A model generated the notes under the pieces. The model did no database searches and had not been told where the DNA came from. It was given only the letters and a program-made list of their open reading frames with translations. Shown here in pieces: positions 3,811 through 54,360 of a stretch of DNA of 64,000 bases (the stretch's first letter is position 1; each line of letters begins with the position of its first letter). Location of the stretch: positions 6,267,999-6,331,998 of the forward strand of contig OZ022578.1 in the NCBI GenBank assembly GCA_963669155.1. The letters are read 5' to 3'. The position numbers and the translations under genes are program-made. This DNA is from Arbacia lixula. Taxonomy: Eukaryota > Echinodermata > Echinoidea > Arbacioida > Arbaciidae.

Positions 3811-4003
3811 CATGTTGCATATAGATTTTCAATGGTAACTACCATGGAAACAGCCAATGAGCTCTCATTATTGCACCTCTTGCATATAGATTTTCAATGG
3901 TAACTACCATGGAAACAGCCAATGAGCTCTCATTATTGCACCTGTTGCCACGGTAGTTACTATTGATGATAAGTTACAATAATTGAAAACCTTTATGCAA
4001 CAT
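3811..4003. mobile_element. Family A palindromic MITE with internal tandem duplication
   Basis: Ends CATGTTGCATATAGATTTTC and ATTGAAAACCTTTATGCAAC are inverted copies. The inner arms contain GGTAACTACCATGG and CCACGGTAGTTACTATTGAT. The left arm (65 bases) is duplicated head to tail at 3815-3879 and 3880-3944 with almost no divergence, so this copy is longer than the other family members (about 150 bases). Confidence 0.85.
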
Positions 4004-4015
4004 CAGATGTTTCCT

Positions 4016-6132: not shown

Positions 6133-6826
6133 ATATCCCTTCATGCCTTCTCTCCCATGTACATACATGTATAATCACCATAACAGGAATTCCGGCTGTT
6201 TGATTAATGCACTTTCCATTCCTCTCTACAATCATTCGGCATGATTAGACCAGGAGTGAAACCGTTTCCCATACTTCCCTGCATTGTGAGTGTCCGTTCG
6301 AGAGTGAAAGCTGCCAGCTAGGCTCAGTCCCCAATCTTCCTATAGATGATAAAGTGAATTTTAGAACCACATCCGAAATATGTGCGACACTTGTTGCCTA
6401 TTTTATTGTGTTACAATAACACTGATCCGTGTATGCCATGCTTTTAAAACAGAAACATGTCGTGTACATACATTTTTACCATTAAGCTACACAGAACAGT
6501 GAGAACATTTTTTACTTGCATTAACTTTATGGAAATGTCAACATGTTTTAGGACATTCTTCTGTCAGTCGATATATTATATCATATGACATTACATTTAT
6601 AGTTCCTCATTTGACACAAAGTCATTAATATATCATATCTACATCAATACACCTATCTTACCTATTGAGTATTTATTATAGATACTATCATTGTGTGTTT
6701 AGAAATTAAATGTAGTTCAATGATGAGATGGCAGTGAGGCTCAACTGATCGGGAGTTGGTCTATCATACATGTAGGCAAGGCCCTGGGATCAAATCCCAA
6801 CTTAGTCCTCGTGAAAGACTCCACCA

Positions 6827-6966
6827 GGGCCCTGTTGCATAAAACTTACCATTGATGGTAACATTACCACCGGAGTCAAATTCCTTGGAAACCTTTAATT
6901 TGATTGGCTGTTGAGCGATGTTACCATGGTAGTTACCATAATAGTAAGTTTTATGCAACGGGGCCC
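6827..6966. mobile_element. Family B palindromic MITE
   Basis: The ends GGGCCCTGTTGCATAAAACT and AGTTTTATGCAACGGGGCCC are near-perfect inverted repeats. The interior has TTACCATTGATGGTAACA, TTTGATTGGCTGTTG and GTTACCATGGTAGTTACCAT. 140 bases, non-coding. Confidence 0.9.
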
Positions 6967-7034
6967 AGATAGAGGTCCAGTGGATAGGACAGTCATATTC
7001 TATACGTGATAAAGAAAGTGCTGCTTCACCCCAT

Positions 7035-7192
7035 GGCCCTGTTGCATAAAACTTACCACTGACGGTAACTTTGCTATCAATGGCAACTTGTGTGGAAACC
7101 ATGAATTTGATTGGCTGTCGGATAGTGTCACCAGGGTAGTTGCCGTTGATGATAGAGTCAACATTTATGGTGAGTTTTATGCAATGTGGCCC
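7035..7192. mobile_element. Family B palindromic MITE
   Basis: GGCCCTGTTGCATAAAACTT at the left end and AGTTTTATGCAATGTGGCCC at the right. The central AATTTGATTGGCTGTCGG is shared with other family B copies. It lies 68 bases from the previous copy in the same orientation and is more diverged than it. Confidence 0.88.
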
Positions 7193-9367: not shown

Positions 9368-9518
9368 TGTTGCTTATAGATTTTCAATCACTGTAACTTA
9401 CCCTCAGTGATAACTACCATGGTAACAGCCAGTGAGCTCTCATTATTGCACATGTTGCCATGGTAGTTACCATTGACGGTAAGTCACAATAATTGAAAAC
9501 CTATATGCAGCATGGCCC
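9368..9518. mobile_element. Family A palindromic MITE
   Basis: TGTTGCTTATAGATTTTCAA at the left, AATTGAAAACCTATATGCAG at the right. Interior ATAACTACCATGGTAACAGC pairs with TGCCATGGTAGTTACCATTG, and GAGCTCTCATTATTGCA sits at the centre. Confidence 0.88.
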
Positions 9519-9740
9519 AGTTGTTCACCTGCATGTCCAAACTCATACCATTTAGGTTAATGCCACCATCATGAAATCTCGCCCCATATGGGCCATCATA
9601 GGAGCAATGGTACTCTTAAAACATTAACCCTTAACCTGCCGCTGTCGCATTTTTGCGACCTACGTGTAGGGGTAACGTGCCACTTCCGCAAATTTGTGAC
9701 CAAACTGTAATAGAGAAAACTGTAATAGTTAAGACTTAAT

Positions 9741-14007: not shown

Positions 14008-14164
14008 GGCCATGTTGCATATATAGGTTTTCACTTATTGCAACTTACCATCAATGGTAATTACCGTGGCAACAGGTACAATAATGAGAGCTCAGTGGCT
14101 GTTGCCATGGTGGTTGCCATTGATGGGAAGTTACAATAATTGATAACGTATTTGCAAAATGGCC
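14008..14164. mobile_element. Family A palindromic MITE
   Basis: GGCCATGTTGCATATATAGG at the left; the right end reads ACAATAATTGATAACGTATT then GCAAAATGGCC. The central GAGAGCTCAGTGGCTGTTGC is in the opposite orientation to the centre of the 9368 copy. Confidence 0.85.
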
Positions 14165-15210
14165 GGCCAGGCTTGAGAAATTGCCCCTGCATATTCCCCC
14201 TGCCAAGCTTGTATATATATATTGCCCTCTAACCCTAGCCCATTGTCGTTTAAAACTAGATGCCCACATAGCGGTTGAGGGTGGAGGGGGGATACACCAA
14301 GTTACCCTTCTTCACATATTGTCACTAGCCAAGTCATATAGTTTATACAGCGGATTCCCACTTGCAAGAGTCAAACACAATGTGTACCATATTGTTCTTA
14401 TAAAGTCTAGATACGAGACAGACATGTACTAAGTTTCTATTATTTGACAAGCCCTTTGCTCTATGCTGTGATAGATTAATAGTGAAAGACAGCCCATTAT
14501 ATTTTGGGGAAAATTCCCATCACCATTTAAATACACAAACACAAAAATAGATTCCTCTCATATCAATGCCTGCAGCTGACAGATCATTGACAGAACTTAA
14601 GAGCGGAGGAAAAGACAATTATTGCTATCACACCCTTGTCTATGTTAGGCACGGACGTTCGTGGGTGATTAATCCGTACTCATTCACCGTCGGTAGGGCA
14701 GGTAATCCCATGTCACCATAGCCGGTCTGTACCGGTTAGTACGTGGCCAGTTAGGATCAGACTTGAATTGTGGGGGCCCAGAGTAATTAAAAGAGTGATT
14801 AATTATTTCTCATGATGTAGTTTTGCAGCGATTGATGTGGTCTGTCTCGTGTCCGTTGTCGTGAGGTCAACTACTGCACTGTGATTTCGTGAGAAAGTCT
14901 TGTAATGTGTGTTCTGTTGGATGGGCAGCTCCACCCCTACCTGATGACGTGCACACAGCTTACCCTCACACAGTACCCTCTCCTGCATCCTCTCATGTAC
15001 CGGGCACCAGAGTGCTATAAGTCATGTCGCTACAGCCCTGCTGGAAGAGACTTGAAGGTGTCCACCTCGTCTCCTGTGATATCCCATACAAAATATATAT
15101 GGGAAACTACCGGACATCTTTCCTACAGTCACCCTTGATGACATCTGCTTGAAATTCTTAGAATTTTGTCCTGTTAACTGGATTTTGTGAATTTCTCTAT
15201 TTTCCCTCAG

Positions 15211-15584
15211 ATGATAAACACCATCCTGCACCACGCATTCCCGACCAACCCACAACTCCTCTTTGCCTTCTTCTTCGAGCTTCCGTCGACGTCGCCCAAC
15301 TCACGGCCTCGCCGCACCAGCAACTCCCTCCCCAACGGCCACGAGGCCAAGAAGGCCCTCCCGGTGAGGAGCGGCAGTCGCATCAAGGGGCTGCTCAACC
15401 CCCAGCCCAAGTACACGCCGTACCGCGACCCCCCGCCCCTGCCGCCGACTAAACCAGACAGGGAGCGCCACGGGAGGACACCGCAGTTCAGGCGTATGGC
15501 GGACTGGGAACAGCAGATCAAGAGGACAGGAGCTAGGAACGTCCGGGTCACAGATGTCAACAAGGAGTTCAGGGTATCAGACAG
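15211..15584 (+). CDS. MTMR10: Exon 3: end of PH-GRAM, Pro/Arg-rich linker, start of phosphatase-like domain
   Basis: Encodes residues 72-195 and two bases of codon 196. MINTILHHAFPTNPQLLFAF closes the PH-GRAM domain. Residues 97-165 are a basic, Ser/Pro-rich linker rich in C-ending codons. It contains DPPPLPPTKP, whose PLPPTK (147-152) fits a class II SH3 ligand pattern. FRRMADWEQQIKRTGARN then starts the myotubularin domain, matching the 'SDWDREIKRTGA' block of human MTMR10. The acceptor is TTTCCCTCAG and the donor GACAG|GTGAGG. The linker is the variable part between family members. Confidence 0.95.
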
Positions 15585-15672: not shown

Positions 15673-15830
15673 AGGACCCTGTCGCTTGTATATTTTCAAT
15701 TATTGTAACTTACCATTAATGGTATTTATCATGGTAGCAGCCAATGGGCTTTCAGCTTTACAGCTGTTGCTATGGCAGTTACTATCAATGGTAAGTTACA
15801 ATAATTGACATCCTATATGCAACATGGCCC
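15673..15830. mobile_element. Family A palindromic MITE
   Basis: It starts 89 bases after exon 3. The left arm TTTTCAATTATTGTAACTTA and the right arm TAAGTTACAATAATTGACAT are inverted. The right end TATATGCAACATGGCCC is shared with the 9368 and 53791 copies. Confidence 0.87.
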
Positions 15831-17094
15831 AGTTGTGAATTGGTCAAAATTGAGTTGAGAAAAAGAGAGTTTAAGGGTATTGAAAATTGTTTCCATTGTA
15901 GGCAGTTGGTCATGCTTGGGGTCTACACAAGAATCTGAGCTTAATTTCATAACTTAGAATTTCATGTTCAGAGAGGTCAAGAAGGAGTTTGGGCTGTAAA
16001 ACAGGCAAGGGATGGAGGGTAACCTATAAAAGTAGACAACTGACATGGTGTCTGTTGAGAGTGGCTAGGTCACAGATGAGGCTTGGTAAACAAAGAATTA
16101 TGATCATGACTCAAGTAGGGATAAAGCTTAAGCAGTAGAACTTTTGTTTTCTGAGAAAATTTTCTGCTTGGATGGGATGGGGGGGGGGGGGATGGTTATA
16201 AGTTTGGATTGATGAGACCTTCCACTGTTGACTTGGGATAAAATCGCCAGGTGTGAATTCGTTGAGAAGGAGGTTGGGTTATCAGAGAGGTAAGGGGGTA
16301 AAACCAGAGAAAGAAATGTAGGATTGTGTCCACTGAGGGTGAGTTCTGGCATCTTTATGAACGAAATTTGCACTAGTGCAATGTATGATTGCATGTATAC
16401 TCTCAGATACATCACCGTGCTCAACACATTCTCAAATACTTGCAATTACATAAGTACACATTTGGAAACATACATCAGCAAACCCAAATGGAAGCGTACA
16501 ACTAGTGGCTCACCCACACCATTTTCTTGTAATTTTCACAGGTGCTAGCATGGCTTATCTCCTTTATATTAAAATATTCCCTCAGATGATTATTCACCTG
16601 ATAGCTTAAAATAAAAATGCCACTTAGGACTTACTCATTTTTACCAGAAGAAAGGAAGAAAGAAAGAAAGAAAGAAGAAAATTTCCTCGTGATCCAGGCT
16701 GCATGATCACCTTTTGCGAGTAGTCAGTCAAAGGGGGGAGGGAAAAACATTAGGGAAAAAAAAATATTCCCTCGTGAGTTCACTTGGCATTATCGCGGCT
16801 TCGCACGAAGCCAGGTACAAGCCAGTCACGGGAGATTTCAGCAAACCAGGTTAGGCACTTGGCAGTCTCACTGGAGCTTTTCCATTAATCAGCACTACCA
16901 CGTAACTACGTCGTACCCTCGCCAGCCCAATTTTCGGTGGGCAGACCTCTCACGAATTGATCCCTCCCATTTTGGTCGGGGCCGATATGACAACCCTAAT
17001 CACCCAGGGAGGGCAGGGGACGGTTGTGAGTGGTCAGCATGCTTACTGCTTGCTTGTGTTGGTCATCTTGGGATTCATATCCTTTTGCAGCTCT

Positions 17095-20239: not shown

Positions 20240-20715
20240 ATGCGCTCAATACCGTTGGCGTACAGATGTGTAATAAGTCAGTGTTTTTTTTTTTTTTTCA
20301 GGCCTGGTAATGTACATGTAAGGGTTAACTCACTTATTACCATTGGCATGATGATGTGTAGGAAGTCAATGAGATTTTTAAGGCCTTAAAGGTAAGGGTT
20401 CACTCTCTCATTACCATTGGAATCAAGATGTGCTGGACGTCAATGGGGTTCTCAAGGCCTGATAATACATATAAGGTTTAAATTTGTCATTACCAATGGG
20501 CATAAAGAAAGTCAGTGGGTGTTCAAGGCCTGGTACGGGAAATGTAAGGGTTAACTCTCTCATTGCCATTGGCATAAAGATGTATAGAAAGCCAATGGGA
20601 TGTTCGAGGTCTGGTAATGCACAAACATGTAAGGGTTACCTCTCTTATTACCATTGGCTTAAAAATGTGTAGGAAGTCAATGGGATTTCCAAGTCCCGGT
20701 AATGTAAGGGTTAAA
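20240..20715. repeat. Degenerate minisatellite, unit ~80 bases
   Basis: About six units with the pattern CTCATTACCATTGGCAT, AAGATGTGTAGGAAGTCAAT, GGGATTTTCAAGGCCTGGTA, ATGTACATGTAAGGGTTAA. Units differ by point changes and small indels. A poly-T tract interrupts the first unit (20284-20299). Confidence 0.8.
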
Positions 20716-22480: not shown

Positions 22481-22568
22481 CTTGCCAGAATATTTTGTAG
22501 TACCAGACCCCTGCTCTGATTATGAATTGAAGAAATTTGGAACAAATTTCGAGGATTGCAGAGTACCA
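22481..22568 (+). CDS. MTMR10: Exon 4: LPEYFVVP block of myotubularin domain
   Basis: Encodes residues 196-225: S-LPEYFVVPDPCSDYELKKF then GTNFEDCRVP. LPEY-VVP followed by a 'xxF...R-P' run is the hallmark at this point in MTMR10/12; active myotubularins have a related YP-xLxVP run. The acceptor is TTCTTTTGCAG and the donor GTACCA|GTAAGT. It enters in phase 2 and leaves in phase 0. GC content is near the intron level, unlike exons 3 and 10. Confidence 0.95.
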
Positions 22569-31304: not shown

Positions 31305-31393
31305 TTCTGGTGCTGGAGTCACCGGAATGGGAGCATGTTAATGAGAATGGCCGCCCTGACGGAAAACGAACTCGAGAGCGAGACAGAGAAATG
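31305..31393 (+). CDS. MTMR10: Exon 5: FWCWSH block of phosphatase-like domain
   Basis: Encodes residues 226-254 and two bases of 255: FWCWSHRNGSMLMRMAALTE then NELESETEK. The W-C/W-x-H-x-N-G-S-x-L-x-R pattern is diagnostic of the myotubularin fold (human MTMR10 reads LWCWSHSNGSALVRMA). The acceptor is TCTGTCCATCAG and the donor AAATG|GTGAGT. It enters in phase 0 and leaves in phase 2. Confidence 0.95.
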
Positions 31394-33386: not shown

Positions 33387-33517
33387 GTTTCTGGACAGTA
33401 TCACCCTGGTTCATCCGTCCAAGGTCCATCCGGACATCATAGACCTGGACAAGGACCTCCCTACCCTCCTGGAGCTACAGTCAGGCTACCTCAAGCTCCA
33501 ATCAATGTGCATGCCAG
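33387..33517 (+). CDS. MTMR10: Exon 6: phosphatase-like domain, whose 3' end seeds a tandem array
   Basis: Encodes residues 255-298 and one base of 299: FLDSITLVHPSKVHPDIIDL, DKDLPTLLELQSGYLKLQSM and CMP. It matches the segment of MTMR10 with 'DLDKTLPNIQEVQAAFVKLKQLC'. The acceptor is CACACCTTGTAG and the donor ATGCCAG|GTAGGT (phase 1). The last 34 bases of the exon and the first ~29 of the intron form the first unit of the array that follows. Exon 7 joins only from this first donor in the correct frame. Confidence 0.94.
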
Positions 33518-34772
33518 GTAGGTTCCAAAATGAACCATTACAGACATGTTGCTTCAAGCTCCAATCAATGCGCATGTCAGTTAGACCCAAAATGAACCAT
33601 TACAGACAGGCTACCTCAAGCTCCAAACAGTGTGCATGCCAGTTAGACCCAAAATGAACCATTACTGTCAGGCTTCCTCAAGCTCCAATCAATGTGCATG
33701 CCAGGTAGGTTCCAAAATGAACCATTACAGACAGGTTGCCTCAAGCCCCAATCAATGTGCATGCCAGGTAGGTTCCAAAATGAACCATTACAGACAGGTT
33801 GCCTCAAGCTCCAATCAATGTGCATGCCAGGTAGGTTCCAAAATGAACCATTACAGACAGGTTGCCTCAAGCTCCAAACAATGTGCATGCCAGTTAGACC
33901 CAAAATGAACCATTACAGACAGGTTGCCTCAAGCTCCAATCAATGTGCATGCCAGGTAGGTTCCAAAATGAACCATTACAGACATGTTGCCTCAAGCTCC
34001 AATCAATGTGCATGCCAGGTAGGTTCCAAAATGAACCATTACAGACATGTTGCCTCAAGCTCCAAACAATGTGCATGCCAGTTAGACCCAAAATGAACCA
34101 TTACAGACAGGCTACCTCAAGCTGCAGACAATGTGATTGCCAGGTAGGTTCCAAAATGAATCATTACAGACATGTTGCCTCAAGCTCCAAACAATGTGCA
34201 TGCCAGTTAGACCCAAAATGAACCGTTACAGTCAGGCTACCCCAAGCTCCAAACACTGTGCATGCCAGTTAGACCCAAAATGAACCATTACAGACAGGTT
34301 GCTTCAACCTCCAATGCGCATGCCAGATAGGTTCCAAAATGAACCATTATAGACAGATTGCCTCATGCTCCAATCACTGTGCATGCCAGTTAGACCCAAA
34401 ATGAACCATTACAGACAGGTTGCCTCAAGCTCCAATCAATGTGCATGCCAATTAGTCCCCAAATGAACCATACAGAGAGGTTGCCTCAAGCTCCAATCAA
34501 TGTGCATGCCAGATAGCTTCCAAAATGAACCATTACAGACAGCTTGCCTCAAGCTCCAATCAATGTGCATGCCAATTAGTCCCAAAATGAACCATTACAG
34601 ACAGGTTGCCTCAAGCTCCAATCAATGTGCATGCCAATTAGTCCCCAAATGAACCATACACAGAGGTTGCCTCAAGCTCCAATCAATGTGCATGCCAAAT
34701 AGCTTCCAAAATGAACCATTACAGACAGCTTGCCTCAAGTTTCAATCAATGTGCATGCCAGATAGGTTCCAA
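33484..34772 (+). repeat. Minisatellite of 62/63-base units containing the exon 6 end and its splice donor
   Basis: Twenty-one consecutive units, each with CCTCAAGCTCCAATCAATGT, GCATGCCAG and CCAAAATGAACCATTACAGA. The first unit overlaps exon 6 (33484-33517). Two main types occur. Type A has CAG|GTAGGTTCC with an intact GT donor, at 33518, 33705, 33768, 33831, 33956, 34019 and 34144. Type B is one base shorter with CAGTTAGACCC, where GT is lost. Distal units read CAGATAGGTT, CAATTAG or CAAATAG. ORFs of 60-134 codons across the array arise from it and are not separate genes. Confidence 0.97.
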
Positions 34773-35279
34773 CATGTATATAATCTTATAGATCTTATAG
34801 GCTTCCTTATGACATCCTAGTAGAAATTTAAAGTACCTGAAGATTAAGAACTCTTATGCAAGTTTTTCCACCTGTACATTTCCAGATGAAATCAGGTGTT
34901 TGATAAGGTCTGGACTTGCTTTGTTATATAGAGGGCTTTACAGAGTATTTGATCGTAGTAGGTGCATCAAAATAGAATGTCCAGTGACTCCATGCTGTGC
35001 CCTGTCCTGTGCCATCTATGCCTATAAGATGAAGAGGGAGAGACCTGAGAGTATGGCATTACCTTAAATCAGTGCTAGCTGTGGCCTGATTGATTCAACT
35101 CGGATATGGAGACAGGTCAGGGCTAGAGCATGTCATTGACTGGAAATGGAAAAATACCCCTTTTAGAAATTCCTTATTAGGGGTTTAGTGTTAGGCTATT
35201 AAGGCAGGGGAGGAAATAAGATGCACACAGTGAAGAACATGCCATATTTGTACCTCCAACACATGGGTCTCACGTTTCT

Positions 35280-38460: not shown

Positions 38461-38525
38461 TATGCCTATGTAACTTACCAATGAATGCTGGCATCTGATT
38501 GGCTCTTTCAATGGTAGATACTTCT

Positions 38526-38668
38526 GGGCCCTGTTGCATACAACTTAATCATTGTGAGTAACTTTGCTACCAATGGCAATATCTATGGAAACCTTGAATC
38601 TGATCGGTTGTCAGGTGCTGTTATCGTGGTAATTACCATTAATAGCAGAGTTACAATGCAACGGAGCT
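38526..38668. mobile_element. Family B palindromic MITE
   Basis: GGGCCCTGTTGCATACAACT starts at about 38526. Interior AACTTTGCTACCAATGGCAA and TTGAATCTGATCGGTTGTCA match. The right end is eroded to TTACAATGCAACGGAGCTC. Confidence 0.85.
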
Positions 38669-40439: not shown

Positions 40440-40518
40440 AGAATATAAAGGACTTCTGGACGACAGATGAGAAGTGGTATTCAACCTTAGATAGCACCAA
40501 GTGGCTTCAAACGATAGG
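40440..40518 (+). CDS. MTMR10: Exon 7: phosphatase-like domain
   Basis: Encodes residues 299-324 and two bases of 325: ENIKDFWTTDEKWYSTLDST then KWLQTI. The EKW-xxSLxxTxWL pattern matches MTMR10 just upstream of the degenerate catalytic loop. The acceptor is TTTTGCTCTGTAG and the donor ATAGG|GTGAGT. It enters in phase 1 and leaves in phase 2. Confidence 0.94.
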
Positions 40519-40615: not shown

Positions 40616-40629
40616 ATTTCTCTCTCTCA

Positions 40630-40671
<42 letters not shown>

Positions 40672-40731
40672 CGCTCTTTCTCTCTCTCTCTCTCACTCTC
40701 TCTCTCTCCCTCTCTCTCTCTCTCTCCCCCC

Positions 40732-40763
<32 letters not shown>

Positions 40764-40853
40764 TTTACTATTTCTTTCAGTGTCATTCTCTTTCTCTCTC
40801 TCCCTTTGTTTTATCTCTCTCCCACTCTCTCTCTCTCCCCTCTCTCTCCCCCA

Positions 40854-40894
<41 letters not shown>

Positions 40895-40966
40895 CCAATC
40901 TTACTATTTCTTTCAGTATCATTCTCTTTCTCTCTCTCCCTTTGTTTTATCTCTCTCCCACTCTCT

Positions 40967-41015
<49 letters not shown>

Positions 41016-41065
41016 AATCTTACTATTTCTTTCAGCACCATTCTCTTTCACTCTCTACCTTAGTT
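40616..41065. repeat. (CT)n array with three higher-order units carrying TTTCTTTCAG
   Basis: Between CT runs there are three copies of ACTATTTCTTTCAG followed by CATTCTCTTTC, with AG ending at 40780, 40916 and 41035. CTCCCTTTGTTTTATCTCTC is shared by two units. Each copy looks like a 3' splice site. Ser/Leu-rich ORFs over the array are not genes. Confidence 0.9.
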
Positions 41066-43080
41066 TCAGCTCACAATGCTCCCATTACCATCACGAACCA
41101 CACCTCCATCCCTACTTATTTCTCAAATCTTCTCCCCAACATGGGGAAGAGGGGGTGTTAGCAGCATGAGATGGATGTACATGTAGTATACCATGCCCTC
41201 CGTCAGACATAACCTTTCTTTCAGGCTGTTCAACATTTATATTCCAAACCTTACAATCACAGGTATATCAAAGATTACAATTAGGACTGGCAGAAGTAGA
41301 CTTATAGCTCTTCAGTTCTTCTCTAGACAGGGAGAAGAGAATTTATTTATTGATTTATTCCGTGTGCTTTTACTGGGCTGGCCCCGTCAGTGAGCAAAGC
41401 ACTGTTCTTCACGGGGGCCGTGGGCACATCAAACAACAAAGATAACATAGACAGTCATGTCAACAATATGATAATTAGATATAACATTTACATAATGTAA
41501 GGGTCACATTATCATTCCCGTAATGGTCTTGCCCTAATTTGTCTATTAAAGGAATCGTCCCGAAAAGATGACAAATTGATGACAAAGATGAGAATTATTG
41601 TTACTGTGAGTATTAGACCAGAATAGACCTGTGTGATAATTTGGGTGAGACATGTCCCACAGCCTGTGAGCAAGGCTATTCAGAGAACGTAACAGGTTGA
41701 GGGCGGATCAAGCCGGATGAGACGAGGTGTTTGAAGATATGACAGAGAGCATGGCAGCGGAAGCTGTCTTTTATCGATACAGTATATAAAGCTGGTCTTT
41801 GAAAATTGTGTTCCGTGTGTACTTGTAATGCTTTAATGCCTTGAGGCATCAAAACAATCCATTCCGTGCTAGCAGTCAGATCCAGAAAAAGTTTATGTGG
41901 ATAGGAAGACCAAGCGTCCTTTAAATACATTCTACTTTTTACCTAAACGGAACAACTACTTATTTTCTCTATCTAATCTAGATAATTTTTTTCTGTCCTG
42001 TGGGCCATTTTGGCACATTGCTGTTTTTGAAAATATTACACGTACATGTGCGATAATGTGTCCCTTTAACAAAATTCATGAAACCTGGCATGGATTAGCA
42101 ATTTACCCTACGATGACATGCATGAAATCTGACAGTCGAAGAGTCAGAAAAGTTGAAAAACACCCTGTTTTATAGCAAACATGATCTGCATTCATAGACC
42201 ACATTGTATCATTCGGTATATCATTCAGCAGTGCACTGTTCTCAATTCATCACTGTGGTGTCGTGAGCCGGGATGTGCGCCATTGTGGTCTCAGAGCTTT
42301 AGGCTACATGGAACGTTGAGTTAATGATCAACTTAATAATTCTGCTCAAAATCAGTTTCTAGTTCTGATATTGTGAGTGAAGCTCTTATACAGTATTGTC
42401 TTCCATTTTCTGTGGTATTCACATAATTTGATTATTTGACCTGCAAAATGGCTACTTTCCCTGTAATATACATAGATTCAAGTGTTAACAATAATCTCAT
42501 TTGGTTGTCATTTGGTGAGAAATTTAAGTCTAAAATGTGTGACAAATCAAACAGTATGTTATAAAATGATAGAATGTTGCTCAATGGATATTTATATCAT
42601 TCAGTTCATAATATTTTCTTTGATTGCCTCAGCAACTCACAGTATACGACACATTTTGAAAGTTGTATGTAATCTAGTATCTTTGTTTTTAACGTTGCTG
42701 GCACGTACAAGTTTGTGGGATGCTGTCCCTGAAGATGGCCCCCGATGAATTATATTTTGGGGTAAATTGAGAAGAACTCCCCGCTGGCTGCGAAGAGAGA
42801 GTGGTCTTGTCCTGTCGATTAGCTGTTTCCTGGACGGAGAGTTTGACATTTGGAGCAGACGTGCTTTCTGGTTTAAGGCAGGGCCATGTTTGGAATTATT
42901 TAAAAGATAATCCTTGACATTGCCCTGATCTGAGGATGTGTGTTGGTCAGATGAGCTCTTTGGGTATTCACTGTACTATTAAAAAAAAATTAATGTAATC
43001 ATTGGCTTGTGAACTATACTGTTATCCGAAGTACAAGAAATTGTACAATTAAGAAATTAATATATGAATATTACATGTAG

Positions 43081-46334: not shown

Positions 46335-46405
46335 AACATGCCTAGCTCTCGCCAAACAAGCAGCAGACCTCATCTACCTCGCAGAAAAGACAGTTGTCAT
46401 CAAAG
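46335..46405 (+). CDS. MTMR10: Exon 8: segment leading into the catalytic-loop position
   Basis: Encodes residues 325-348 and one base of 349: TCLALAKQAADLIYLAEKTV then VIK. It corresponds to the helix and beta strand (human 'FLKHSAELVYMLE..LSVVLQ') that precede the P-loop in active myotubularins. The acceptor is ATAACTCTAG and the donor ATCAAAG|GTGAGC. Codon 349, the position of the catalytic Cys in active enzymes, is split over this junction as G|AG (Glu). Confidence 0.93.
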
Positions 46406-49270: not shown

Positions 49271-49443
49271 AGCATCAGGGTCGGGACTACTCCTGCGTGG
49301 TGTCATGTCTGGTGCAGATCATGCTGGACAGCCACTACCGCAGCCAACTGGGCTTTCAGAGCCTGATCCAGAAGGAGTGGGTGGTGGCTGGTCACCCCTT
49401 CCTTGACCGGTGCGGTCACTGTCAGCCCAGCAATGGCACCGAG
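49271..49443 (+). CDS. MTMR10: Exon 9: degenerate P-loop and GFQSLIQKEW block
   Basis: Encodes residues 349-406: EHQGRDYSCVVSCLVQIMLD, SHYRSQLGFQSLIQKEWVVA and GHPFLDRCGH. Active myotubularins have HCSDGWDRT at residues 348-356 in this frame. Here the loop is K-E-H-Q-G-R-D-Y-S, so Cys is Glu349 and the phosphate-binding Arg is Tyr355. Human MTMR10 is likewise substituted (Q-E-E-E-G-R-D-L-S). LDxxYR and GFxxLIxKEW confirm the register. The acceptor is CTCCTGTAG and the donor ACCGAG|GTATGT, phase 0. Confidence 0.97.
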
Positions 49444-51020
49444 GTATGTCTTCATCTACAAGTTCATTCAATTTCATTCATTTTGAGAAAATGACAAGAA
49501 CGCTTATAATACAAATGGCAAAATTCAGAGCTACCCAGTTATGACATTAAAAGATAGTTCCCGTCATTATTTACACTGGTAAGGTCACCAGCAATGGCGT
49601 CAGGGTACCTCTTGGATGTCTTCATCTTTAATTTCAGTCATTTCATTCATTATGAGAAAAATCAATTATTATTCTTGTAATAATCAATAAAATATTTTCA
49701 CCTTTGGACAAATTTGGACCCAAAAATGTGGTGTTTCAGATAACTTATTCAAAAGACAAGAATGACAATTGTGTATCACACCTGTCCACCCACTATGTGA
49801 TGCACAATGGCCATTGTTGTGTTCTGAATTAATCAAAAATTAAAAAAAAAAAAAAAATTAACACACAAACTTTGAGATCCAGATTTGTCTGAAAGTTAGA
49901 ATCTTGTGAAATTCCAAGGATCATTACAGGAAAAGTAATTGATGAAATGCCACAAAACCTGCTTCTAAATAATGTGACATTCCCTGACTTGTTGATGTGC
50001 CAATTTCAGCTTGATTCGAGTTGTAACTTGTGTTTAATTATTTTGTGCAAGTGTCAAAAGGTTTTTTTAACACGTAGTACAACATGTAAGGATATAATTC
50101 AGAGGTGATGACATTCAAAGTGAATGTCTTTCCTTTCTTGACTGGTGAGGTCACATACAGTGTAATCCTAGCAATGGGACTAAGATATGTCTTGGACATC
50201 TGGATTAGTGATAGCATAATTTTATGCGTGCAATCAACCGTCATGGAAACAATAAGAGTATAGCATTTACAAACTAGCATCCAAATGAAGATGATTCAGA
50301 GCAAAGTGCATTCCAACAGAATATTAGCAGTGTGCTGTAAAAAAAAATACTTGTATTATTGTGAAAGTAATGTTACACACCTTTAATTAAAACTTGCTTA
50401 CACCACAAGAAAACTTTTTTTTTATAAATGAAAAAGGCTTTGTATGCCATTCACTGTCTGTCCCAAGTCCCTGCTTGTGGAACATTGGACGCACCGTTGC
50501 AAACTGGTCGCAATACAAGACCTCTCTTGCAAGTTGTCCCGCTAAAGTCCCTGAGTAACCCCTGTACTTAGAAGGAGGGTGGTTGTTGATGAGTCAGCTC
50601 ACAAACACAGCTCCATCAAGGAGCTGTGAGCAGAGCTCTGCTGCTGATGGGGTGAGCTCTTACTTCCCGTGCTGGTTCTCGTCTGCATGTGCCATGAGTC
50701 AGCCTCATCTCAGTGATGACAGGGCGTCTCTACCCCGGCCATTACCCCCGCCTCAACACTACATATTGTATGACAAATTTCAATCGTGTATGAGCTGTTA
50801 TTTGCACAACTTATGCAAATCCCTGCACGGTTATACATTTTACAGCATTTTATGGTTCTAGAATATTCTCATTATTCTCCCTGTGCTCCTGTGTATGTTA
50901 TTGTACATGAAGCTTTGTACTGCACAGCAGTGGATATGTTCTCCCAGTTGTTGTAAAACAACAAATTCAAAGAAATGTAGGCTAGCTATCATAATAGGTA
51001 AGTTTGGACTTCAACTTGCC

Positions 51021-51294: not shown

Positions 51295-52248
51295 GCGCCA
51301 GTATTCCTGCTGTTCCTCGACTGCGTACATCAACTCATCGAGCAGTTCCCGTCGGCCTTTGAGTTCACGGACACCTTCTTGATCGCCCTGTGGGACAGCA
51401 TGCACTCGGGCATCTTCGGAACCTTCCTGTTCAACAGCGAGCGTCACCGGACGCGGTCCTGCGTGAGCAGCAGCCAGGGACAGTACCAGACCATCCAGCT
51501 GGCCACAGTCTGGGCCTGGACGCTGCAGTTTACTAAAGATGACCAGGCCCTGTTCACCAACCCGCTCTACATCGCCAAGTCGGAGCTCAAGTTCAGCGAC
51601 AACCCGCTGGAGGACGAGCCCGACCTCATGCAGGGCTGCAACGCCGGGATATACCGCTCCATCCGCAGGCTCAACAATGGCAAGTCCTTCATCGGCTCTG
51701 ACTTCAAGGAGATGGACAGCTGGACCTTCAACGGCGGCAAGAGGAGAAAGAACCCTAATGTGAACGGGGCGAACTCTGCGAGCAGCACGTTTGCAAGCTG
51801 GGAGGAGGAAATCATTATCCCACTGCTACAGACGCCCACCATCTCCTTCTGGAACCTGTGCTTTCTGCGCTGGGTGCCCAGCGTGCACACTGTAGGTGGG
51901 GGTAGCCCAGCCATCTACCAGCAGCAATGCAAGCTGGTGGATGAGATCCAGCAGCTACGGGAGACGCTGGAGAACCTGCAGGTTGCTAGGGACAATGTGG
52001 TCGCCCCGCCAACCAAGCCCAAGAGGAAGAGCAGGCTGTTCTTCACCTCACAGGAGGACATGGTCAGGAACCGGGAGGTGCTGACGTCGGCGTTCCCGTT
52101 CTCCATCAGCGATCTGGAGTTTCTCGGTGGGGACCGGCGGTCGTTCCTGGCCACGCCCCTGGCCAGGTTTCTCGGGGGACAGAGCCTGCTAGAGCAGGAG
52201 GGGAGTGAGATCATGGAGAGCGATGCAGAAACACTAGAAGAGATGTGA
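51295..52248 (+). CDS. MTMR10: Exon 10: rest of phosphatase-like domain and C-terminal region, stop codon
   Basis: Encodes residues 407-723 and TGA. APVFLLFLDCVHQLIEQFPS, AFEFTDTFLIALWDSMHSG and IFGTFLFNSE complete the myotubularin fold. VWAWTLQF, LFTNPLYI and FWNLCFLRWVPSVH are conserved in MTMR10/12. Residues ~513-575 are a variable linker with a basic GGKRRK patch. QQCKLVDEIQQLRETLENLQ (about 615-640) suggests a short coiled coil, which in myotubularins mediates dimerisation. SAFPFSISDLEF and TPLARFLGG near the C-terminus match the MTMR10/12-specific tail. It is GC-rich with C/G-ending codons. The ORF's internal ATG at 51379 is not the start. Confidence 0.97.
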   Translation, partial: APVFLLFLDCVHQLIEQFPSAFEFTDTFLIALWDSMHSGIFGTFLFNSERHRTRSCVSSSQGQYQTIQLATVWAWTLQFTKDDQALFTNPLYIAKSELKFSDNPLEDEPDLMQGCNAGIYRSIRRLNNGKSFIGSDFKEMDSWTFNGGKRRKNPNVNGANSASSTFASWEEEIIIPLLQTPTISFWNLCFLRWVPSVHTVGGGSPAIYQQQCKLVDEIQQLRETLENLQVARDNVVAPPTKPKRKSRLFFTSQEDMVRNREVLTSAFPFSISDLEFLGGDRRSFLATPLARFLGGQSLLEQEGSEIMESDAETLEEM

Positions 52249-53790: not shown

Positions 53791-53948
53791 GGGCCATGTT
53801 GCAAATAGGTTTTCAATTATTGTAACTTACGATCAATGGTAACTACCATGGCAACAGCCAATGAACTCTCATCATTGCACCTGTTGCTAGGGTAGTTACC
53901 ATTGATAGTAAAGTTACAATAATTGAAAACATGTATGCAACATGGCCC
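53791..53948. mobile_element. Family A palindromic MITE, well preserved
   Basis: GGGCCATGTTGCAAATAGGT at the left, AACATGTATGCAACATGGCC at the right. Arms TTCAATTATTGTAACTTACG and AAGTTACAATAATTGAAAAC pair. The centre has GCCAATGAACTCTCATCATT. Confidence 0.92.
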
Positions 53949-54220
53949 TGCTTTTACTATGGTTACCAGCATCTTACAACTTTTGTGTAATCCAGACTTC
54001 AAATGGGAGAATCTTTACCACATTGCAACCCCATGGCAACAGCTCACGATGAACCAATCCATCCATTCTAAGGGGCTTTAAGTTAATTTGAGTTTTGGTG
54101 TTTTCAAATGTTCAGTTAGAGTTTTGTTCGCAATGACGGAAATTATATCATATGTATGATATTGTGTGAGTTGTACTGTTTGTGTGTCATGCTTACCATA
54201 TCAGGCAACTGTCATATCAG

Positions 54221-54360
54221 GGGCCCCTTACATAAAATTTACCATTGATGGTAACTTTGCTACCAATGGCAACCTCTATGGAATCCTTGAATTTGATTGG
54301 CTGTCAAGTGATGTTACCATGGTAGTTACCATTAATGATAAGTTGCATGTAACATGGCCC
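54221..54360. mobile_element. Family B palindromic MITE
   Basis: GGGCCCCTTACATAAAATTT, ACCATTGATGGTAACTTTGC, TTGAATTTGATTGGCTGTCA and ATGTTACCATGGTAGTTACC. The right end is TGCATGTAACATGGCCC. Confidence 0.92.

Follow-up and report, generated by a model that had tools for sequence, protein, structure and literature searches.

The locus analyzed here raises the question of what becomes of a gene when the end of one of its coding exons, together with the splice donor, is present in many tandem copies at the start of the following intron: whether the copied donors compete with the original one, whether they serve the gene, or whether they are simply carried along. Such an array was found in the window, by which we mean the whole stretch of 64,000 nucleotides of Arbacia lixula DNA that was analyzed. 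We consider it quite probable that the array is a "mirage" minisatellite that is largely a passenger and that the donor at 33517 is used in most transcripts.

The repeated exon edge and its host gene

The array lies on the forward strand at 33476 to 34776, where Tandem Repeats Finder reports a minisatellite with a period of 63, 20.9 copies, a score of 1874, and 87% matches, and direct parsing at the conserved anchor GCATGCCA and two variants of it yielded 21 copies with 21 donor positions. The founding 63-bp unit (33476 to 33538, forward strand) spans the donor at 33517 and consists of 42 nt of exon and 21 nt of intron. A first-pass annotation had described the exon end and its donor as tandemly copied 21 times, which holds, but its composition of 34 exonic and 29 intronic bases does not, since the unit starts at 33476. 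The 21 copies have a mean pairwise identity of 86%, and in most of them TTACAG precedes the exon-like part. Outside the array, no other copy of the unit was found in the 64-kb window, where the best matches were 11 to 16 nt long (E 3.1). For this reason, and because the exonic part lies inside a conserved protein domain, a dispersed repeat that landed on the exon by chance was ruled out.

The exon concerned (33387 to 33517, forward strand, 131 nt, acceptor tgtag/G, donor CAG/GTAGGT) is the fifth recognized in the window, having earlier been numbered exon 6, and its frame is open with the flanking exons. From 33517, the frame continues (MCMP/ENIKDFWTTDEKW) into the next coding exon at 40440 to 40518 on the same strand, which lies inside a match to PF06602. 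The joined frame further includes exons at about 15275 to 15584 (5' end not fixed), 22481 to 22568, 31305 to 31393, 46335 to 46405, and 49271 to 49443 (forward strand), as well as a last exon that begins at 51295 and ends in a stop; an earlier exon lies near 2145 to 2283, with approximate edges. Joined from 15275 on, the eight exons encode 630 residues in one open frame whose single stop stands at its end, and the joins have GT-AG.

The last 560 residues of this protein match the Pfam families PF06602 (E 2.3e-65) and 3-PAP PF12578 (E 4.1e-12), a pairing that we take to be a mark of the MTMR10/11/12 group. The E of ELQSGYLKLQSMCMP, residue 121, opens the best PF06602 stretch and is the start of the repeated exonic part; the stretch continues through the next exons. 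The alignment of the joined protein with MTMR2 starts after the repeated part. In that alignment, the signature VVVH-S-SDGWDRT of MTMR2 corresponds to VVIK-E-HQGRDYS, with E at the place of the cysteine and Y at that of the arginine; the S in the MTMR2 crystal sequence is presumably a stand-in for the catalytic cysteine. The two Pfam matches and the replacement of the catalytic cysteine and arginine relative to MTMR2 bear out the earlier naming of the gene as a pseudophosphatase, and a myotubularin-family pseudophosphatase of the 3-PAP (MTMR10/11/12-like) group is supported as the predicted product. Searched alone, the exon at 33387 to 33517 matched 0 Pfam families, and its one PDB match, in the wrong frame, was set aside as chance. 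A tRNA scan found 0 genes, and a literature search on myotubularins in invertebrates gave nothing useful among the matches listed. Since the frame continues to 40440 and the PF06602 match crosses the junction, the exonic part is taken as real protein and 33517 as the real, working donor.

The copies themselves carry a record of how the array may have grown. Similarity between copies peaks at a lag of three units, or about 188 bp (0.894, versus 0.860 over all pairs, with a permutation p of 0.0002). Each of copies 5, 6, and 7 is 98.4% identical to its counterpart three units on (copies 8, 9, and 10, respectively), and copy 16 is 100% identical to copy 19 and copy 17 96.8% identical to copy 20, with only 77.8% identity between copies 18 and 21. 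This block pattern and the lag-3 similarity lend support to the proposal of the first-pass annotation that unequal exchange spread the units, and duplication during growth involved blocks as long as about 188 bp. The pentamer TACAG opens the founding unit at 33476 and recurs right after its end (33539 to 33543), so the founding duplication may have exploited a 5-bp match. We envisage that a 63-bp segment straddling the exon donor was duplicated, possibly between the two TACAG pentamers, and that it would then have expanded to 21 copies through unequal exchange or slippage, with one to three units per block.

Tandem arrays are commonly misassembled, and one lancelet globin array had to be rebuilt from traces after its draft version had appeared aberrant, according to a figure legend in PMC3087553. 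That the array is an assembly artefact, or a collapsed or expanded repeat, is nevertheless most improbable here, as the many private differences among copies and the block pattern argue against it and an artefact would more likely yield identical copies; the exact copy number of the array is uncertain.

Coding use of the copies as tandem exons was ruled out. Among copies, diversity peaks at the first codon position (0.168) and falls to its minimum at the third (0.068), so that coding constraint is not visible in them, and the donor-to-donor spacing of 58 to 63 nt shifts the frame from copy to copy. A related possibility is that the array marks the beginning of intron or exon gain, in which an exon-like copy with its own donor would be recruited as a new exon, following the model put forward for globin mirages in PMC3087553. 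The TTACAG ahead of the exon-like part and the GT kept in six downstream copies would fit this, but no pyrimidine tract precedes TTACAG, the copies are frame-shifted relative to each other, and nothing indicates that a copy is used; we therefore regard such recruitment as very improbable.

Intact and broken donor copies

Within the 64-kb window, the sequence CAGGTAGGT occurs 7 times on the forward strand, each time inside the array, and 0 times on the reverse strand. Seven units with a perfect CAG/GTAGGT, one true donor and six downstream, had been proposed before, and parsing recovered the same number: copies 1, 4, 5, 6, 8, 9, and 11, with the +1 base at 33518, 33705, 33768, 33831, 33956, 34019, and 34144. 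The six intact decoy donors located by parsing thus lie, all on the forward strand, at 33702 to 33710 (copy 4), 33765 to 33773 (copy 5), 33828 to 33836 (copy 6), 33953 to 33961 (copy 8), 34016 to 34024 (copy 9), and 34141 to 34149 (copy 11), and GT is absent from all of copies 12 to 21. The +1 G is lost in 14 copies (14/20 of those downstream), by a G-to-T change in 10 and a G-to-A change in 4. The 10 copies of the TT (TTAG) class have a donor region that is one base shorter, while those of the AT (ATAG) class (copies 14, 17, 20, and 21) retain the longer intronic form, so that length class and donor class do not coincide. The earlier equation of a 62-nt type B unit with loss of the donor is therefore incomplete; it fits the 10 TT copies but not the 4 AT copies, and there are three classes, GT, TT, and AT.

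Measured by U1 duplex energy, the true donor and all six intact decoys, which are identical over CAG/GTAGGTTC, are equal at -11.8 kcal/mol, and the 14 broken copies reach -5.1 kcal/mol or weaker. The intron has 399 other GT sites, the best of which reaches -10.4 and none of them -11.8. That six decoys match the true donor in sequence and U1 energy and exceed every other GT site of the intron points against a passenger array. In competition between identical donors, the choice often falls on the intron-proximal one, and on this basis decoy use would be favored. Evidence on the other side comes from the loss of GT from 14 of the 20 downstream copies and from lancelet arrays, which are described as leaving regular splicing undisturbed (PMC3087553, PMC3902484); these published statements concern other genes, and human boundary repeats sometimes change splicing (PMC2812944). 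We infer that the spliceosome mostly uses 33517, the array being for the most part a passenger. The true donor would stay because the protein needs it; the copies are noncoding intron sequence, and most of them are without a donor GT.

The consequences of decoy use can be computed. The donors at 33704, 33767, and 33830 would extend the exon by 187, 250, and 313 nt, none of which is a multiple of three, and in this our recomputation agrees with the first-pass annotation. The last three intact donors (33955, 34018, and 34143) would extend it by 438, 501, and 626 nt; although 438 and 501 are divisible by three, this is of no help, since a TGA is met first. This TGA, the first in-frame stop on computed read-through beyond 33517, lies on the forward strand at 33655 to 33657, upstream of all six decoys and where it had been placed approximately before. 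A decoy-extended exon would be 318 to 757 nt long, in each case with the TGA at 33655 to 33657, and use of any intact decoy would probably lead, by way of an mRNA with an early stop, to NMD.

It is thus conceivable that the array acts as a dosage rheostat, with poison exon extensions and NMD as the means by which its length or its number of intact decoys would set the amount of productive mRNA. The six full-strength decoys, every one of which gives the TGA at 33655, and the several later junctions of the gene, which could signal NMD, would suit such a role, and boundary repeats have altered splicing in some human paralogues (PMC2812944). Against it, the decoys show no sign of being retained, with 14/20 lacking GT and none left in copies 12 to 21, and the lancelet arrays are reported to splice normally (PMC3087553, PMC3902484). 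Tuning of dosage by array length is possible but unsupported, and we judge it distinctly improbable.

The same loss of GT could instead indicate that the decoys are mildly harmful and that selection removes them, with donor-killing mutations spreading through the array. Diversity within the unit peaks at the donor, with the three most diverse of 55 nine-base windows starting at 33516 to 33518; the two highest column entropies are those of +5 and +1; and two different bases replace the G at +1 (T in 10 copies, A in 4). We also ran a simple neutral growth simulation of 10,000 runs at five mutation rates, of which 2859 were kept as matching the overall diversity. GT was lost in at least 14 of 21 copies in 26 of these 2859 runs, and the observed diversity of the donor nine-mer was reached in 81, but in 234 of them the donor window ranked first in diversity. 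Further points weigh against selection: the 10 TT copies have linked changes in common and may stem from one event, and a hand count of distinct substitutions shows no excess at the donor, whose 9 columns have 6 and one deletion, versus 32 in 54 columns. Three exonic columns are also widely changed: of 20 copies, 18 depart from the exon copy at 33481, 16 at 33486, and 17 at 33488. With columns this variable across the array, the loss of GT from so many copies is unremarkable (about 0.12 by arithmetic). Selection against decoys is suggested, not shown, by these comparisons, the simulation favoring it and the linkage and spread of variable columns not doing so; we do not claim it as an established result and, as an explanation of the array, hold it to be rather doubtful.

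A second exon-edge duplication and other repeats in the window

A second, degenerate donor-edge duplication was found at the exon ending at 49443. It spans 49397 to 49491, 49575 to 49660, and 50132 to 50201. Copy 1 (49575 to 49660, forward strand) scores 60 over 49616 to 49660, the part before 49616 appearing in one alignment only, and copy 2 (50132 to 50201, forward strand) has a local score of 48; 0 of 959 random windows scored as high. GT is kept in copy 1, which has AGG/GTACCT for GAG/GTATGT (U1 energy -5.0 versus -6.9), and is replaced by AT in copy 2 (-0.2). The loss in one of the two copies agrees with selection against decoys, but the other retains its GT.

When 16 exon edges were compared (8 donor and 8 acceptor edges, those at 2145 and 2283 being approximate), a clear copy within about 2 kb was found at 2 of them, both donors. 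A match at the acceptor 31305 (score 69) was set aside, as it lies within a repetitive pyrimidine tract. For comparison, 857 random segments were drawn, and 257 were discarded because they were of low complexity or fell within the array; a match scoring at least 48 lay near 27 of the remaining 600, two of these at the 49443 edge itself. The edges at 22481 and 33387 would themselves not pass the complexity filter. Since local duplications are not rare in the window, exon edges show no more than a weak excess. One combined reading strikes us as unlikely: a mirage array located outside the lancelets, whose host gene has formed donor-edge duplications at least twice and whose decoys are being purged by selection. 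If true, it would be a natural record of a spliceosome tolerating up to seven identical competing donors.

Other repeats were noted in the window. One dispersed family occurs at 3858 to 4014, 9368 to 9524, 14015 to 14171, 15680 to 15836, and 53797 to 53953 and a second at 6825 to 6947, 7032 to 7154, 38525 to 38647, and 54218 to 54340; both are short, with TTACCATGGTAAC-like inverted motifs, and are probably MITE-like. An 87-nt unit with TGTAAGGGTTAACTC-like starts is present four times at 20300 to 20697, in the intron between the exons at 15584 and 22481, and a TC-rich block at 40619 to 41066, soon after the exon at 40440 to 40518, includes a 119-bp tandem duplication at 40830 to 41066. Tandem Repeats Finder also reported GA/TC runs, which together with the dispersed inverted repeats give the impression of a marine deuterostome; the two dispersed families may be marks of the host lineage.

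Relation to known boundary repeats

Tandem repeats of exon-intron boundaries have been described as mirages in the lancelet Adh3, troponin C, globin, and PGBD5 genes (PMC3087553, PMC3902484), with a published unit range of 10 to 160 bp and with the suggestion that copied splice signals could serve as cryptic sites (PMC3087553). Lancelets are reported to form such repeats often, and variation in length among haplotypes, or somatic instability, is a further mark of the class. The present array has four features of this class: it spans an exon-intron boundary, 7 of its 21 copies keep CAGGTAGGT, its unit is 63 bp, and neighboring copies are concerted (p 0.0002). As in the lancelet cases, as described, a boundary-spanning repeat with a copied splice site adjoins a real exon and its neighboring units are homogenized, and there too AG/GT is kept in many, not all, copies (PMC3087553, PMC3902484). 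It differs in size and host gene. Among the lancelet globins with mirages, BflGb6 and BflGb9, the BflGb6 haplotypes have 6 and 3 units of 150 to 160 bp, versus 21 units of 63 bp here; PGBD5 carries an imperfect triplication of a 108-bp unit, the gene here is a different one, and the hosts of the published cases called mirages are cephalochordates. The array is thus a real, large exon-edge minisatellite of a known class, mirages having already been described.

Two other kinds of event are related. Minisatellites at exon-intron boundaries, as here, have been reported in duplicated human genes, where they account for 27 intron modifications, some with alternative splicing (PMC2812944). Those lie in recent paralogues within segmental duplications, have an average unit of 30 bp in four copies, and were found by comparing paralogues, whereas the present array belongs to a single gene and lies in an existing intron. 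Intron gain through tandem genomic duplication of AGGT, as reviewed in PMC3443670, likewise involves a tandem duplicate with a splice signal, but there a new intron arises inside an exon; here, the copies lie between the exons 33387 to 33517 and 40440 to 40518, in an existing intron, and no new intron is formed.

A literature search on competing donors found nothing, and other work may be in print. Seven identical donors ahead of one acceptor amount to a natural version of the classic competing-donor experiment. Which of them are used, the first, the last, or all, would be a direct test of exon definition versus intron-proximal choice, and alleles of the array would provide a dose series. With one large and one degenerate example in a single gene, the locus enlarges a little-studied class of repeats from which new exons and introns have been proposed to arise.
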